The notes below the pieces were generated by a model that was given only the letters and a program-made list of their open reading frames with translations, was not told the origin of the DNA and did not search any database. Below are positions 1,877 through 9,014 of a DNA stretch of 64,000 nt, piece after piece; the stretch's first letter is position 1; every line of letters begins with the position of its first letter. This DNA comes from Microcaldota archaeon (GTDB taxonomy: Archaea; Micrarchaeota; Micrarchaeia; Micrarchaeales; CABMGC01), in NCBI GenBank assembly GCA_028867135.1, contig JAGWGW010000002.1, positions 25,544 through 89,543 on the forward strand. Reading direction: 5' to 3'. A program made the translations under genes and the position numbers.

Positions 1877-3718
1877 TCACACTATGTATATTATCCATGC
1901 TGCTACTATGAAGCCCAGTACCACAAGGAACGGCACGTAGCGCTTGCTCATCCTTATTACGTCCATGCCGACCCTGGTTACCAGCGCCTCGGAGCCCGTC
2001 CCCCACGTCTTGAAGCCCTTGATCGTCGTGGTTGTATGCGAGCTCCTTACGGGCCCCACGTCCTTAAGGGCCTCGTCTATCATCCCGTCGAGTATCGGCA
2101 TCACCTCGCTTGCCTTGGTATATCTGCCCAGCGAGTTGCTTGCTGACAGCGCAAGCGAGTTGACCGAATGGGTATCGGTCGTGTATATCTCAGCCTCGAG
2201 CCCGAACCTTTTCCTTATGTGCTCCACCATGGACTCGCGGAACGCAGGAAGCATATTGTTCGCATCGAAATACACCATGCAGAACCTCCTTCCGCTTGCA
2301 GAGAAGATCCCGACGCTGCTGTACCCTATCCCCAAGTCCCTTGCGTTGATGAGCATTGATGACAGCCTTCTTGTGGAGGATCCGAAGAGCATCCTCGAGG
2401 AGCCTGTCCTCCTCGCTGCGCTCCTTATCGCGTTCTCGTATCTCCTGACGTATGGGCTCCCGTCGTATATGCCCCTGAGGTCGTCCGAAGGGGCCGACTC
2501 GAACCTTGAATTGTGCGCGTCTATCAGTATGGTCCTCGAGGCGCCGTTGAGGCTTGCAGACCTCTCCATCCTGAGCCCCATGTCCCTTGAGATGTCCTCG
2601 GTGACCGATGGAGCCTTAGTCAGCGTCAGCAGGTTTGTAGAGTTTATCCTTATGTTTATCGACCTGCACTGCCCGTCCCTGCCCATGCCTATGCTGCCGA
2701 CCGACGGCACGAAGCTCTTGTCCTTCATCGCATCTATGCGCTCTATGATATGCCTGTTGAGGCTCTCGACCTGCGATGTGCTTATCGGGTTGTCGTCTAT
2801 GTTGACGGCGCCGTGAACTATGAACGGGCTGGCCTTGTAGTTCGAGATTATGCGTCTGCCCAGCTGCTCCGTTATCACGCTGCCGCCTATGTTCGCGAAC
2901 GGGCCATAATGCAGGTCTGGCTTGACGAATACGGCCTTGTATCTGTTCTTGCGCTTCAGGACCAGTATGTCGACGTTTACGTCGCGCTTGACCCCTCCGC
3001 TTCCAAGTATTTTCGTATCCTTGGTGAATTCGAAGAGCAGCTGCCCCACCATGGACCCGAAGAGCGCCACCCCGCTTATCTCCAGCTCCCTTTTCGCCGG
3101 CCTGTCTATTATGTATATTACAAGGTAGCCTATCGCCAGGAACACCAGCATGCCAGAATAGAGCTTGATCAGGATCGCTTCTATCGGGACGTTGAAGTCC
3201 AGTATGTACCTGCCGAATGGTATGTAGAATAGAACGTTGAGCAGCGGCTGTATCGAAGCCGTTATCGCAGCGCTCTTCTTCTGGCCCACAGCGAGCTTGT
3301 TTATGAAGAACCAGTAGCCGTACACGCCCGCGTTTCCGAGGAGGAGGAGGAGGTAAGCTGCGAACGTGCTGTTGGACAGCATGTAGAGAAGGTCCCCGAG
3401 GAGCAGGAATATGGAGTATATCGTGGATATCGCCAGCACAGCGAACATCGCGTGCTTTATCCTCATGCTCCTTTTCATCCCCTTTATCGTTATCACTGTA
3501 AGTATCGCGGGCATGCTTATGACGAATATGCCGGAGCTGAGGCCGTAAAGCGCAAGCTTGAAGACGCCGTCAAGGCTCCTCATGTGTATTATGAAGACAG
3601 CGAGGATGCCCACGACCGCGCCGAGCGCCAGCAGGATAGCCAGCTGCGCAAGTATGCCCGGCACTGACATGTTGAAATAAGTGGCATACTTTGTTAGATC
3701 GCCCTTGCGAGCAGGCAT
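1877..3718 (-). CDS. DUF2070 family archaeal membrane protein
   Basis: About 610 aa, N-terminal TMs then soluble domain with 'KPDLHYGPFANIGGSVITEQLG' and 'HGAVNIDDNPISTSQV'; start set at MPARKG to avoid overlap with uppS. Confidence 0.7.
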   Translation of the reverse strand: MPARKGDLTKYATYFNMSVPGILAQLAILLALGAVVGILAVFIIHMRSLDGVFKLALYGLSSGIFVISMPAILTVITIKGMKRSMRIKHAMFAVLAISTIYSIFLLLGDLLYMLSNSTFAAYLLLLLGNAGVYGYWFFINKLAVGQKKSAAITASIQPLLNVLFYIPFGRYILDFNVPIEAILIKLYSGMLVFLAIGYLVIYIIDRPAKRELEISGVALFGSMVGQLLFEFTKDTKILGSGGVKRDVNVDILVLKRKNRYKAVFVKPDLHYGPFANIGGSVITEQLGRRIISNYKASPFIVHGAVNIDDNPISTSQVESLNRHIIERIDAMKDKSFVPSVGSIGMGRDGQCRSINIRINSTNLLTLTKAPSVTEDISRDMGLRMERSASLNGASRTILIDAHNSRFESAPSDDLRGIYDGSPYVRRYENAIRSAARRTGSSRMLFGSSTRRLSSMLINARDLGIGYSSVGIFSASGRRFCMVYFDANNMLPAFRESMVEHIRKRFGLEAEIYTTDTHSVNSLALSASNSLGRYTKASEVMPILDGMIDEALKDVGPVRSSHTTTTIKGFKTWGTGSEALVTRVGMDVIRMSKRYVPFLVVLGFIVAAWIIYIV

Positions 3719-3728
3719 TCGAAAAACC

Positions 3729-4427
3729 TTATCTCCCGAAACGCCTTTCCCTTTTGCCATATTCCAGGAGCGCAAGGTTGAGGTCGCGTTTCGTGAAGTC
3801 GGGCCAGAGCTTGTTCGAGAAATACAGCTCTGAATAGTAGGACTGCCACGGCATGAAGCCTGACAGCCTCCTCTCTCCGGAAGTCCTTATTATAAGGTCG
3901 AGGTCTGGAACAGCGGATGAGAGCAGCTCGGACTTGAATCTTTCCACAGTTGCGCCGAAACCTTTCTTGACGTCGTTCGCAAAGTTCCTTGCAGCATGGA
4001 ATATGTCCTCCCTTCCGCCGTAGCCTATGAGCAGGTTCATCGTCCTGCCCCTGTAGTGCGCAGTTTCCAGCTCGAGCTGGTGGAGCGCCTTGTATAGGTC
4101 CTTCGGAAGGAGCGAGCTTTTCCCTATTATGTTGACCCTCGCCCTGTTGTCATGGATCATGTCAAGCATCTTCCTGTCATTGGCGACCTTCTTGTATATG
4201 GTGAAGAGCGCCCTTACCTCGTTGCGGTTTCTCTTGAGGTTCTCTGGCGAGAGGGCCCATACGCTGACGTTGTTGATCCCGTAGTCCATGCACCACCTGC
4301 TGAAGTCTATGAACTTCCCGACGCCGAGTTCGTATCCGTTGAAGACAGACATTTTATGCTGGTGCGCCCACCTCCTGTTCCCGTCCGGTATAAGAGCTAT
4401 GGTCTCGGGTAAAAATTCAAAAGCCAT
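3729..4427 (-). CDS. uppS: Polyprenyl diphosphate synthase (undecaprenyl/decaprenyl type)
   Basis: 'IALIPDGNRRWA', 'DLIIRTSGERRLSGFMPWQSYYSELYF' motifs. Confidence 0.92.
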   Translation of the reverse strand: MAFEFLPETIALIPDGNRRWAHQHKMSVFNGYELGVGKFIDFSRWCMDYGINNVSVWALSPENLKRNRNEVRALFTIYKKVANDRKMLDMIHDNRARVNIIGKSSLLPKDLYKALHQLELETAHYRGRTMNLLIGYGGREDIFHAARNFANDVKKGFGATVERFKSELLSSAVPDLDLIIRTSGERRLSGFMPWQSYYSELYFSNKLWPDFTKRDLNLALLEYGKRERRFGR

Positions 4428-4524
4428 CGAATTCACTTAGATAGCGTTTGAAATGTATATAAACATTTATGTTGAGAGCGACGGATTTCAATAGCGTTAT
4501 AAATTAGCTGAGCAAATCCCTATC

Positions 4525-5052
4525 ATGAATAACGTGGAAGACACGCTGAAGGGGAAGATACGGGACATTCCCGATTATCCGAAGAAGGGCATACTCTTCA
4601 GGGACATAACGCCTTTGCTGAAGGACGGCAGCTCGTTTGCGTTGTGCGTCGACGAGCTCGCGAAGAGGGTTTCGGACATCGACTTTGATTACGTTGTTGG
4701 CATAGAGGCGAGAGGATTCATAATAGGCGCTGCGCTCGCGTACAAGATGAAGAAGGGGTTCATACCGATAAGAAAACTTGGGAAGCTTCCCTACAGGAGG
4801 ATAAGCAAGGAGTACGCTCTCGAATACGGCACCGCGACGATAGAGATGCACCATGACGCGCTCGCAGGCGGGCAGGAGGCCCTTCTTGTCGACGATCTTC
4901 TTGCGACAGGCGGAACTGCCAAGGCCGCGGCTGAGCTGGTAGAGTCGGTAGGAGGGAAGGTCGCGGGCTTCGCCTTCGTGATAGAGCTTGCCGGGCTGAA
5001 CGGCAGGAGCATGCTCGGAAAGAGCAGGATAGACACGCTGATGAAATATTGA
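4525..5052 (+). CDS. apt: Adenine phosphoribosyltransferase
   Basis: 'DYPKKGILFRDITPLL', 'GIEARGFIIGAALA', PRPP motif 'ALLVDDLLATGGTAKAA'. Confidence 0.93.
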   Translation: MNNVEDTLKGKIRDIPDYPKKGILFRDITPLLKDGSSFALCVDELAKRVSDIDFDYVVGIEARGFIIGAALAYKMKKGFIPIRKLGKLPYRRISKEYALEYGTATIEMHHDALAGGQEALLVDDLLATGGTAKAAAELVESVGGKVAGFAFVIELAGLNGRSMLGKSRIDTLMKY

Positions 5053-5687
5053 TGCTTATGCTATTTGCCTTCTCGATAATACAGGCGATCATTTCGCTGC
5101 TCGCAGGCGCGTCTGGCGCGATAAACGCGATAATATCGCAGTACGGCTACATAGGCATATTCGTATTGATGACGCTCGAGTCCGCGTCGATGCCGATACC
5201 CAGCGAGGTGGTGCTTCCTGCAGTCGGCCATTTCGTATACACGGGGCAGCTGAACATCTACATAGCCGTCATTGACGTGCTGCTTGCAAGCCTGGCAGGC
5301 TACATGATAGACTACGCCATAGCTTATTACGTAGGAAAGGAGGTGGTGTACAAGCACCTGGGACTTTTCCGCATAAAGAAGGAGAGCATAGATGCTTTTG
5401 ACAGGTGGTTCCTGAGGAACGGCCCCTTTGCGGTCTTCGTCGCAAGACTGCTTCCAGGGGCAAGAGGACTGATAAACTTTCCTGCTGGTTTCGCGGAGAT
5501 GCCGCTGAAGAAATTCATATTCTATTCAATGGTAGGCGCATTTATATGGGAGGTGGCGCTCATAGGCTTCGGGTACTACGCGCTATCCACAGGAAGCCTG
5601 ACCATAACTGCTGTGGCGATAGCGCTCTTCCTGATAGCGCTGTACCTAATCTACGACTATGCGCTGAAGAGGATAAGGAAGGGATAG
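5049..5687 (+). CDS. DedA family membrane protein
   Basis: 'ESASMPIPSEVVLPAVG', 'FVARLLPGARGLINFPAGFAEMPLKKF'. Confidence 0.88.
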   Translation: MMLMLFAFSIIQAIISLLAGASGAINAIISQYGYIGIFVLMTLESASMPIPSEVVLPAVGHFVYTGQLNIYIAVIDVLLASLAGYMIDYAIAYYVGKEVVYKHLGLFRIKKESIDAFDRWFLRNGPFAVFVARLLPGARGLINFPAGFAEMPLKKFIFYSMVGAFIWEVALIGFGYYALSTGSLTITAVAIALFLIALYLIYDYALKRIRKG

Positions 5688-6014
5688 TCACTTGGTTTCA
5701 GGCTCCCTTTTCTCTATTATGTAGTTCTTTACTATCTTTATTACCTGGTCTATCGCCCTCTTTATGTCAGCCTCTGTCTTCGCACCTGTGCAGATTATCT
5801 TGCCGTTCTTGAAAAGAAGCAACGCTGTCTTGGGATCGTGTATCTTGCATATGGCTCCAGGGAACTGCTCAGGCTCGTAGTCGACGTCGGGCGATGCCTT
5901 GGCGATGCCGTAAAGGTCGAGCTCTACCCCCAGATCGGCGCTGGCCACTATATTCTCGATCTTGAAGACCGGGTGGAGCTCTACCCTTTTTCCGGATTTA
6001 GCGTGCTTTGGCAT
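5688..6014 (-). CDS. Single-repeat (half) TATA-box-binding protein homolog, 108 aa
   Basis: 'FKIENIVASADLGVELDLYGIA...DYEPEQFPGAICKIHDPKTALLLFKNGKIICTGAKTEADIKRAIDQV' matches one TBP repeat; ORF from ATG at 6012-6014 to stop at 5688-5690 contains no second repeat. Confidence 0.88.
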   Translation of the reverse strand: MPKHAKSGKRVELHPVFKIENIVASADLGVELDLYGIAKASPDVDYEPEQFPGAICKIHDPKTALLLFKNGKIICTGAKTEADIKRAIDQVIKIVKNYIIEKREPETK

Positions 6015-6043
6015 TCGAATCACACTACTATTAAAAAGCAAGT

Positions 6044-6063
6044 GTTTATAAAGGTTTATAAAG
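6044..6063. promoter_or_regulatory. Tandem duplicated palindromic TATA-like element in divergent promoter (half-TBP / L21e)
   Basis: Perfect direct repeat GTTTATAAAG at 6044-6053 and 6054-6063; core TTTATAAA is self-complementary. Confidence 0.6.
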
Positions 6064-6103
6064 CAAAGAATAAGTGTTTCTATTTTGGTTAGAGGTAGTA
6101 GGC

Positions 6104-6391
6104 ATGACTGGAAGGTCGCACGGTCTTTTTGTAGGCAGGACAAGGCAGCTAGCCAGGCATAACCCTCCTTCAAGGCTGGGGATAAGCAAGCTTCTCAAGA
6201 GCTTCGCGATAGGCTCCAGGGTGCTGATAATGCCCAAGGGCAACTTCAACAACATACCCCACCCTAGGTACAGGGGAAGAGTAGGCACGGTTGTTGAGAA
6301 GAGGGGTGGCGCATACGTAGTTGAAGTGCACACGTCGAAGTCGACCATCAGGAAGCTTGTTGTCCCGCAGATGCATCTCGACAAGGCATGA
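6104..6391 (+). CDS. rpl21e: Large subunit ribosomal protein L21e
   Basis: 'SHGLFVGRTRQLARHN...FAIGSRVLIMPKGNFNNIPHPRYRGRVGTVVEKRGGAYVVEV'. Confidence 0.92.
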   Translation: MTGRSHGLFVGRTRQLARHNPPSRLGISKLLKSFAIGSRVLIMPKGNFNNIPHPRYRGRVGTVVEKRGGAYVVEVHTSKSTIRKLVVPQMHLDKA

Positions 6392-6444
6392 TCTTTTTCT
6401 GAACCGGCAATAAGTATAAATACCAGAATCAGGTCCATCTCAGT

Positions 6445-7125
6445 ATGGCCGGTCTTGATTCTTATAAGTCGAAGCCTAACAGCGCGCAGGCAAGGTTCCG
6501 CGGCAAGGGAGGCATAGACCAGGAGAAGGTAAGGGTTGCAGTAGAGAGGAGCAGGCCGTATTTTGAGCTTGTGAGGAGGGTTGAGGGCGAGTTCGGGAAC
6601 CTGCGCGACAGCTATGAGGGCCTTCCGAAGGAGCTGAAGGCTTTGTGGGTTAGCAGGAGGATATACGTCGAGAGCGAGCTGCTGAATGGGGTTGTTATAT
6701 CGTCCGTTGTTGGCATACAGCCTGCGCTAGACGTAGGAAGCAGGACATACAAAAGAGTGCTGAAGAACCGTTACGGCGTGATCTTGGACAATAGGGAAGC
6801 GAGAAGGGTTGCTGCGTTAAGGGAGGCGCAGAGGCAGAGCGATAGGGAATTTGAGGAAAGTTATGCATCATCAAGAGGCAATGGCAATGCAAGGGCCAGG
6901 CTTAACGGAGCAGCAAGGGGAGGAAGGAAATCCAGGATAACCGACGAGCAGATCAGGGCTGCGCACAGCGACAAGAAGACGGCCGCGGAAATGGCTAAGG
7001 AATTCGGCATCGGCAGGAATCAGGTATACGTGCGTCTGAGGGCATTGAGGCTTAAGCCCAACGGCAGGATTAGACAGGGCCAGGGTTCTGCGCTCACACA
7101 TCATGATGGAAGGACGGCCTTGTGA
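6445..7125 (+). CDS. Hypothetical protein with C-terminal helix-turn-helix-like region
   Basis: 226 aa; C-term 'ITDEQIRAAHSDKKTAAEMAKEFGIGRNQVYVRLRALRLKPNG' reads as an HTH. Confidence 0.7.
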   Translation: MAGLDSYKSKPNSAQARFRGKGGIDQEKVRVAVERSRPYFELVRRVEGEFGNLRDSYEGLPKELKALWVSRRIYVESELLNGVVISSVVGIQPALDVGSRTYKRVLKNRYGVILDNREARRVAALREAQRQSDREFEESYASSRGNGNARARLNGAARGGRKSRITDEQIRAAHSDKKTAAEMAKEFGIGRNQVYVRLRALRLKPNGRIRQGQGSALTHHDGRTAL

Positions 7126-7672
7126 GAATGTAGAACCTGCTGTCCCCTTTCAGCTCGATGATTACCCGCTCTGCAAGCAGCTTGACCGGGTCCTGTAGCA
7201 GCGACACCCTCTTTGTTATGTCCTCGAAGCTCTCGAAGGACTTGTCCTCCCTTGCGTCTAGGATCGCGGCCAGGTGCTTCTTGCCTATCCCCGGAAGCAG
7301 CTCCAGAGAATGCATGCGTATGTTGAGCGGCGATGCCGTGTTGAACAGCTCCACGAAGTGCTTCTCGTTCTGCTTTATTATCGCATAGATCGCTGGCATG
7401 AGCTCGTTCTTTGCCCCTTCGGTAAGCTCGCTGTACGAGAGCCTGCCCTTTATGAGCGATATCTTGTCCCTCTCCCCTTTTCCTATGTAGACCCTTGTGC
7501 CTGTCCTGATGTCGCTGTCCTTCGCCACGGCCTCGAGGAGCGTGAACCTCTGCTCTCCGAGCAGCTGCACCAGCGGCTCAGACTTTATCGACGATGACCT
7601 TCCGGTGGGAAGATAGTCTAGCACCACTGCGTACTCTTCCAGACCCTCCCGTTTCTGCTCCATCTCCTGCAT
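7094..7672 (-). CDS. DUF655 family protein (HhH-containing)
   Basis: 'EYAVVLDYLPTGRS...LEAVAKDSDIRTGTRVYIGKGERDKI...LELLPGIGKKHLAAILDAR'. Confidence 0.88.
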   Translation of the reverse strand: MQEMEQKREGLEEYAVVLDYLPTGRSSSIKSEPLVQLLGEQRFTLLEAVAKDSDIRTGTRVYIGKGERDKISLIKGRLSYSELTEGAKNELMPAIYAIIKQNEKHFVELFNTASPLNIRMHSLELLPGIGKKHLAAILDAREDKSFESFEDITKRVSLLQDPVKLLAERVIIELKGDSRFYILTRPSFHHDV

Positions 7673-7690
7673 GCTCTCCCCTGTGCAGCC

Positions 7691-8032
7691 TTATTGCTTT
7701 CCCCTATAGCTTTCGACTATACCCATAAGCTTCTTGCAGGCTTCGTCGTCGGGGGTGAGCCTGTCCATGACCAGTATCAGCTTCAGCTGCGTGATGTCGA
7801 CCGGCATTATCTCCACCGTCTTCAGCGCCGTCTTCTCCAGCATGCCGTTTTCCATCAGCTCGGCCTTCATCTTCTCGGCTTCCTTCTTGCTCAGCTTTGA
7901 GAACTTCTTCGCGTGCTCGTACTCTATCTGCTGCTCATATCCGAGCTCGCCGTCCTTCTTCCTCTCTTCCAATATGTCAAGTACGTCTGCTATCGAGACC
8001 ATCCTTGAGGAAGCCTGCTTCTTTCCAATCAT
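7691..8032 (-). CDS. rpoF: DNA-directed RNA polymerase subunit F (Rpb4)
   Basis: 113 aa; Rpb4-like 'LGYEQQIEYEHAKKFSKLSKKEAEKMKAEL...'; adjacent to DUF655 as in many archaea. Confidence 0.83.
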   Translation of the reverse strand: MIGKKQASSRMVSIADVLDILEERKKDGELGYEQQIEYEHAKKFSKLSKKEAEKMKAELMENGMLEKTALKTVEIMPVDITQLKLILVMDRLTPDDEACKKLMGIVESYRGKQ

Positions 8033-8105
8033 AAGTACCCCGTAGATAAGTATAGCGAATGCCTTAATTTAAATGTTTTGTTTAGTATAGAGTATTGGTG
8101 ACTGG

Positions 8106-9014
8106 ATGGATGCCCGCGACGCGTATCAGAAGGTAAAGGCCGAGATGAAGAAGCACATAGCGGGCAAGGACGAGACCATAGAGCTGCTCTTCATAACGCT
8201 GGTCGCGAACGGCCACGCGCTCCTTGAGGGGGTTCCTGGAGTTGCAAAGACGACCATGTCCAAGGCGCTTGCGGACTGCATACAGGCAGACTTCAAGAGG
8301 ATACAGGGCTCGCCGGACCTTGTGCCCAGCGACATCCTCGGCGAGTCGTATCTGGACAAGGACAACGAGACGCAGTTCAAGAAGGGTCCGATCTTCACTA
8401 ACATACTTCTTGTAGACGAGCTCAACAGGAGCCCGCCGAAGACCATGGCAGCTTTCCTCGAGACGCTTGAGGAGAGGATGGTGACCATTGGCGGGGTGAA
8501 CATACCGCTTCCGAGGCCTTTCACAGCCCTCGCGACGCAGAACCCGCTGAGGATAGAGGGAACAGAGCAGCTGCCCAAGGTTCTTGCTGACAGGTTCATA
8601 ATGAAGATAGACGTTGACTACCCGTCGATGGAGGAGGAGGTCAGCATGCTTAGGATTAAGGAGGCCGAGGAGAAGATAATAACCAGCAAGGTGATAAGCA
8701 TCGAGGATATCCTCGACTTCCAGGAGAAGGTCAAGGCGGTGAAGATGCCTGACGATGTTGCCAGGTTCATAGCGTCGATAGTCTCTGAGAGCAGGAAGGA
8801 GATACACGTAGTCATGGGCGCGAGCCCGAGAGCCGATATAGCGTTCATGCAGTGCTCCAAGGCAAGGGCGCTTATAAGCGGAAGAACAGAGACGACGAAG
8901 GACGACATAAGGTTCCTTGCAAAGCCGATACTCAGCCACAGGATGACGGTCAGGTCAACCGGAGGGATAGGAATCCACGGAATCATCGACGGTATAATCG
9001 CTTCAGTAACCTGA
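8106..9014 (+). CDS. MoxR family AAA+ ATPase
   Basis: 'LLEGVPGVAKTTMSKALA', 'LLVDELNRSPPKTMAAFLETLEERMVTIGG', 'ATQNPLRIEGTEQLPKVLADRF'. Confidence 0.93.
   Translation: MDARDAYQKVKAEMKKHIAGKDETIELLFITLVANGHALLEGVPGVAKTTMSKALADCIQADFKRIQGSPDLVPSDILGESYLDKDNETQFKKGPIFTNILLVDELNRSPPKTMAAFLETLEERMVTIGGVNIPLPRPFTALATQNPLRIEGTEQLPKVLADRFIMKIDVDYPSMEEEVSMLRIKEAEEKIITSKVISIEDILDFQEKVKAVKMPDDVARFIASIVSESRKEIHVVMGASPRADIAFMQCSKARALISGRTETTKDDIRFLAKPILSHRMTVRSTGGIGIHGIIDGIIASVT

Follow-up and report, generated by a model that had tools for sequence, protein, structure and literature searches.

The only TBP detectable in the genome of this Micrarchaeota archaeon consists of a single lobe, and with a probability of roughly 0.78 it is the general TATA-binding protein of the cell in one-lobe form, presumably acting as a homodimeric saddle. 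In every textbook TBP two lobes are fused, and it is usually held that a single ancestral lobe first functioned as a dimer before one duplication took place. The gene, here called half-TBP, lies in the window (the whole 64,000-nucleotide stretch of DNA that was analysed) in the following setting.

5049–5687, forward strand: DedA/VTT-domain membrane protein gene, convergent with half-TBP; its stop abuts half-TBP and rules out a lobe on the 3' side
5688–6014, reverse strand: half-TBP gene, copy A; 108 aa with one TBP lobe at residues 17–98; ATG at 6014, stop at 5688–5690
5721–5966, reverse strand: TBP-lobe segment, PF00352 positions 2–85 of 85 (contig C6 31264–31509 minus an offset of 25543), with the stirrup YEPEQFPG and F51 and F68
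6045–6052, reverse strand: palindromic TATA box TTTATAAA of half-TBP, about 30–38 bp upstream of the ATG
6053–6057, reverse strand: BRE-like AAACC, on the 5' side of the half-TBP TATA box
6050–6062, forward strand: rpl21e promoter, BRE-like AAAGG plus palindromic TTTATAAA (6055–6062), overlapping the half-TBP promoter
6104–6391, forward strand: ribosomal protein L21e gene (rpl21e), divergent from half-TBP and a conserved TBP neighbour across much of the class

One TBP lobe and no second

In a profile search, half-TBP matches Pfam PF00352 without a break over residues 17–98 (104.1 bits, E 3.5e-30, cut-off 22.9). It thus has both a full-lobe match over the curated cut-off and the fold of a TBP lobe (see below), as members of PF00352 do. 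The two-lobe NCBIfam TBP models match over half their length only, with 65–98 bits against cut-offs of 181–347, and half-TBP lacks the two tandem lobes, about 180 aa long and scoring above the equivalog cut-off, of NCBIfam PRK00394. It is assigned to the TBP-domain family and not to the canonical two-lobe TBPs. No Pfam domain besides TBP is found in the 108 aa, and thus there is no fusion to a catalytic domain of the RNase HIII type; the N-terminal domain of RNase HIII is likewise a single TBP-like domain, but is part of a multidomain nuclease.

A six-frame search of window positions 3501–8500, with stops read through and at maximum sensitivity, finds no second TBP lobe or remnant of one, and the in-frame extension on the 5' side to a TTG at 6173 (161 aa) is also without a second lobe. 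The sequence-only reading of this DNA had described a complete 108-aa ORF with a single TBP repeat, on which ORF, PF00352 match and fold agree, and flanks encoding no second repeat, as the six-frame search bears out. Its further suggestion that the lobe is closest to the second repeat is not supported: N and C lobes of canonical TBPs score nearly equally (N/C 77.8/78.8 bits for P. woesei, 75.6/77.6 for M. jannaschii and 75.1/58.2 for S. acidocaldarius), and among the two-lobe TBPs of Micrarchaeota the best matches are to the N lobe, with identities of about 65%.

Just 3' of rpl21e there is a 226-aa ORF (6445–7125, forward strand), which is arginine-rich and has a weak, sub-cut-off resemblance to a resolvase-type HTH near its C-terminus.

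Predicted fold and conserved residues

An AlphaFold2 model of half-TBP, built with 67 sequences (the window's and related ones), has a mean pLDDT of 87.8. In a fold search with this model, 44 PDB entries match at E ≤ 0.001, every one of them a TBP. The top matches superpose at 0.8–0.9 Å over about 82 residues, with a target-normalised TM of 0.44 that corresponds to one lobe of two, and RNase HIII is marginal, with E 0.2 at best. A fold other than that of TBP had been named as grounds against the sequence-only reading; the predicted fold is that of a TBP lobe.

In an alignment of 67 halves, from the window and related sequences, 39 positions are invariant, including N21, V23, F51, F68, T76 and the entire YEPEQFPG. 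The first five we take to be the DNA-contact positions of TBP (minor-groove Asn/Val/Thr and an intercalating Phe pair), and YEPEQFPG to be the TFB stirrup. With this residue correspondence, which is established knowledge, half-TBP carries the Phe pair and the minor-groove Asn/Val/Thr that are expected of each lobe of a canonical TBP. The dN/dS is below 0.15 against eight relatives, so that purifying selection is strong.

The canonical archaeal TBPs of P. woesei (1PCZ/1AIS), M. jannaschii (2Z8U) and S. acidocaldarius (1MP9) have the same fold, with 41–46% identity over the structurally aligned lobe. Half-TBP resembles canonical archaeal TBP in its DNA-contact residues and TFB stirrup and occupies the genomic slot common to the two-lobe TBPs of the class, but it has one lobe in place of two fused ones, and the monomer cannot form a saddle.

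The sole TBP of the genome and the halves of its relatives

The source genome assembly has 961 kb in 33 contigs and is 94% complete. The whole-genome search for a further TBP that had been proposed along with the sequence-only reading finds no other PF00352 match in this assembly. Contig C8 encodes a complete TFB of the ordinary kind, which has two cyclin repeats, and RNA polymerase B is also present; judged by sequence, half-TBP would thus have both the EPEQFPG stirrup and the encoded TFB partner of a canonical TBP.

Matches are found in 59 of 60 genomes of the same order, all as stand-alone one-lobe frames except for a tandem fragment in G018. One-repeat TBPs, for which a survey of relatives had likewise been proposed, are thus common in the order. 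They are of two kinds: A, like the window gene (about 104 bits in its family), and B (about 88 bits, AIFRIKEPKAVIILFKNGKLICTG). Many genomes carry both A and B, at separate places, among them the closed genome of Micrarchaeum sp. A_DKE and the single-contig G042, G048 and G058. A sub-group of the window gene's family has A alone: the source genome (G000) and G001, G003, G029, G011, G019, G025 and G033, of which G001 is of the same genus, G003 is 97% complete in 3 contigs and G029 is one contig. Half-TBP is the only detectable TBP of the source genome, where, given 94% completeness, the absence of another rests partly on these relatives.

In a tally of the 98 genomes of the phylum that are at least 90% complete, one half-TBP is found in 24, two or more separate halves in 42 and a two-lobe TBP in 28. 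The other four are G110 (a half, in a more contaminated genome), G052 (one match, its relatives having two), and G057 (family f2) and G113 (family f7), which have no TBP-lobe match, probably through assembly gaps. In family f7, the genomes G074, G082, G085 and G099 have two or three separate half-TBPs, probably independent of the A/B pair. An 8.4-kb contig (L031, G161:C43) encodes a two-lobe TBP with ordinary, less symmetric archaeal lobes; half-TBPs are present in the same genome, and the two-lobe gene is probably contamination from another archaeon.

The 42 genomes with separate halves, the closed A_DKE genome and the 94% completeness of the source assembly together speak for a heterodimer, of which half-TBP would be one half and a different B half would be absent from the assembly or so divergent that it escapes detection. 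This is unlikely. A profile of B halves retrieves only the A gene in the source genome, and no divergent partner half is found there; the same holds for all eight A-only genomes (90–97% complete, one in a single contig), yet the profile finds both halves in G014 and G042. Loss of B from all eight by incompleteness alone would be improbable.

The rpl21e slot

A-type half-TBP is divergent from rpl21e in nearly all relatives examined, and half-TBP fills the same slot in the other half-TBP families f4, f7, f13 and f16, while B-type genes are located away from it. Within the same class, a two-lobe TBP fills the slot in families f3, f8, f10, f12, f14, f19, f23 and f26. Half-TBP is thus the positional orthologue of TBP and not a side protein, and, as expected of a canonical TBP, it is at once at the TBP locus of the lineage and the only match in its genome. 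Close relatives show no two-repeat gene here, the finding that had been named as pointing to a deletion in the assembly.

The two-lobe Micrarchaeota TBPs (the families just listed and f22) are at the rpl21e locus in nearly all cases. Like half-TBP, they have the YEPEQFPG stirrup and an FKNGK motif, in both lobes, and a symmetric TATA core. Unlike half-TBP, they have two lobes per chain, which are 50–76% identical to each other, compared with 41% in P. woesei.

A regulatory or accessory role for half-TBP, with a full TBP or another initiation factor doing the general job, is very improbable. According to a passage of PMC7221094, single lobes serve other purposes in the TBP-domain proteins RNase HIII and RnlA; however, a full TBP is absent from the source genome, from closed A_DKE and from other few-contig relatives, the position beside rpl21e is common to half-TBP and two-lobe TBPs, and the sequence is of TBP type and not RNase HIII-like, as the poor RNase HIII fold match also indicates. 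The sequence-only reading had left the choice between a homodimer and an accessory factor beside a full TBP; the former is favoured and the latter disfavoured by the sole PF00352 match and the rpl21e slot. Least credible is a two-lobe gene that lost a lobe in assembly or sequencing by collapse of near-identical lobes, as the 50–76% lobe identity and, in G018, an exact repeat of 97 bp that is in frame and lies at the edge of a contig might suggest: dozens of independent genomes, a closed one included, have this single lobe too, its start, stop and neighbours all intact, the window gene is directly flanked by DedA and rpl21e, and at the level of the lineage the artefact is refuted by the closed and few-contig relatives.

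Symmetric promoters

Genes were called with a simple codon model and their upstream regions were submitted to an EM motif search. In the half-only genomes of the window gene's family, the motif is aAAg-n-TtTATATat, that is, a BRE (AAAG) and then an 8-bp TATA core that reads almost the same on either strand (JS/information 0.05, with as low a value in 1.9% of column shuffles). Scored with the motif from half-only genomes, the TATA box and BRE of half-TBP reach 12.3, where the 99.95th percentile of the window is 6.0. The two divergent promoters share 6045–6062, where two perfect palindromes stand in the arrangement TTTATAAA-GG-TTTATAAA, in which the inner half of each TATA box plus GG is the BRE of the other promoter; transcription of rpl21e and half-TBP may compete over this shared promoter.

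The TATA core is equally palindromic in the two-lobe relatives (JS/information 0.015), which fits because their lobes are unusually alike. The palindromic TATA box was considered as a fingerprint of a homodimer; it is real and consistent, yet it is common to the two-lobe relatives and thus not diagnostic. The symmetry of the motif suggests that the direction of transcription is set by the BRE. The control sets (M. jannaschii, T. barophilus, Sulfolobus plasmids) look less palindromic, though at about 30 upstream regions each they are too few to rely on; an initial control run picked up ribosome-binding sites instead of the promoter motif.

Proposed mechanism

In ordinary TBP the two lobes make up a pseudo-dimer. 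As half-TBP has one lobe per chain and there is no other TBP, a homodimer is the simplest working form. Two chains would pair via the strand by which the N lobe of ordinary TBP is connected to the C lobe, giving a two-fold symmetric saddle. Each subunit would contribute a Phe pair, half of the minor-groove sheet and a stirrup for TFB. This homodimer would bend the palindromic 8-bp TATA box. Because such a saddle is symmetric, TFB and the BRE would have to make the choice of stirrup: TFB on the upstream BRE (AAAG) would pick one of two equivalent stirrups and so decide which way transcription runs. Where relatives have two halves, a heterodimer of A and B is possible. An unrelated protein could also supply the role of the second lobe in place of a second half-TBP.

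Halving and possible re-doubling

In a tree of RNA polymerase B rooted with Thermococcus and Sulfolobus, half-TBP is found in the deepest branch and several others, and at least four changes of state are required. Grouping of the two-lobe families into a single clade is not rejected (p-AU 0.335). In the tree of lobes, Micrarchaeota lobes (N, C and single) form one group, separate from both kinds of lobe in other archaea (SH-aLRT 94–95), and N and C clades are mixed among them. Adachi et al. 2016 (PMC4910066), working with 34 TBPs, saw N lobes and C lobes fall into clean, separate clades and inferred a single duplication; mixed clades would, by the same work, imply more than one. The mixed lobe tree is suggestive of a separate duplication in Micrarchaeota. 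The constraint of classical N-lobe orthology costs 39.6 log units with a borderline p-AU of 0.063, so that a phylogenetic proof of re-duplication fails, grouping of all N lobes together being only borderline rejected.

One tentative history, to which we give somewhat less than even odds, is that a halving of TBP close to the base of Micrarchaeota was followed, in one branch, by re-doubling, which would be a second independent duplication. Repeated halving with gene conversion between lobes is a possible alternative. The half-TBP state may well be derived and not ancestral, because the lineage is nested within archaea that have two-lobe relatives; for the same reason, the parallel with the ancestor of TBP drawn in the sequence-only reading is unproven.

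G153 and G061 look like later halvings in which the N lobe was retained. In G153 (family f12, L190:9266–9697), the half-TBP adjoins rpl21e and groups with the N lobes of the family, which looks like recent loss of the C lobe. In G018 (L072:2–412, contig C39), the contig starts inside a second lobe, which precedes the half-TBP and is joined to it in frame, and a stretch of 97 bp is exactly repeated between the two lobes; this is possibly a very recent re-doubling and possibly an effect of assembly.

Relation to known TBPs and significance

Single-TBP-domain proteins were reportedly noted in some Archaea by Brindefalk and co-workers. Single-lobe TBPs in archaea are mentioned in the Methods of Ravarani et al. 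2020 (PMC7221094), with attribution to Brindefalk et al. 2013; these are stand-alone single domains and very probably of the same general kind as half-TBP. Single-lobe archaeal TBPs are thus already known per se. The Ravarani passage itself specifies neither a lineage nor a function, and says nothing of sole-TBP status, synteny or A/B pairs. Beyond that one Methods sentence, a search of the open literature found nothing on half or split TBPs, and no description of a single lobe as sole TBP, of A/B split pairs, of rpl21e synteny or of re-doubling in Micrarchaeota.

Since curated two-lobe models score half-TBPs far under their cut-offs, annotation by such models would miss them. One-half, two-half and two-lobe states at one locus in close relatives form an unusual natural series. 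Living cells with a single lobe as sole TBP make the ancestral dimer step testable, both as to whether a symmetric TBP works and as to how direction is set. If re-doubling is true, it would contradict the published conclusion that the TBP repeat arose once, and the living homodimeric TBPs would be a working model of the ancestor.
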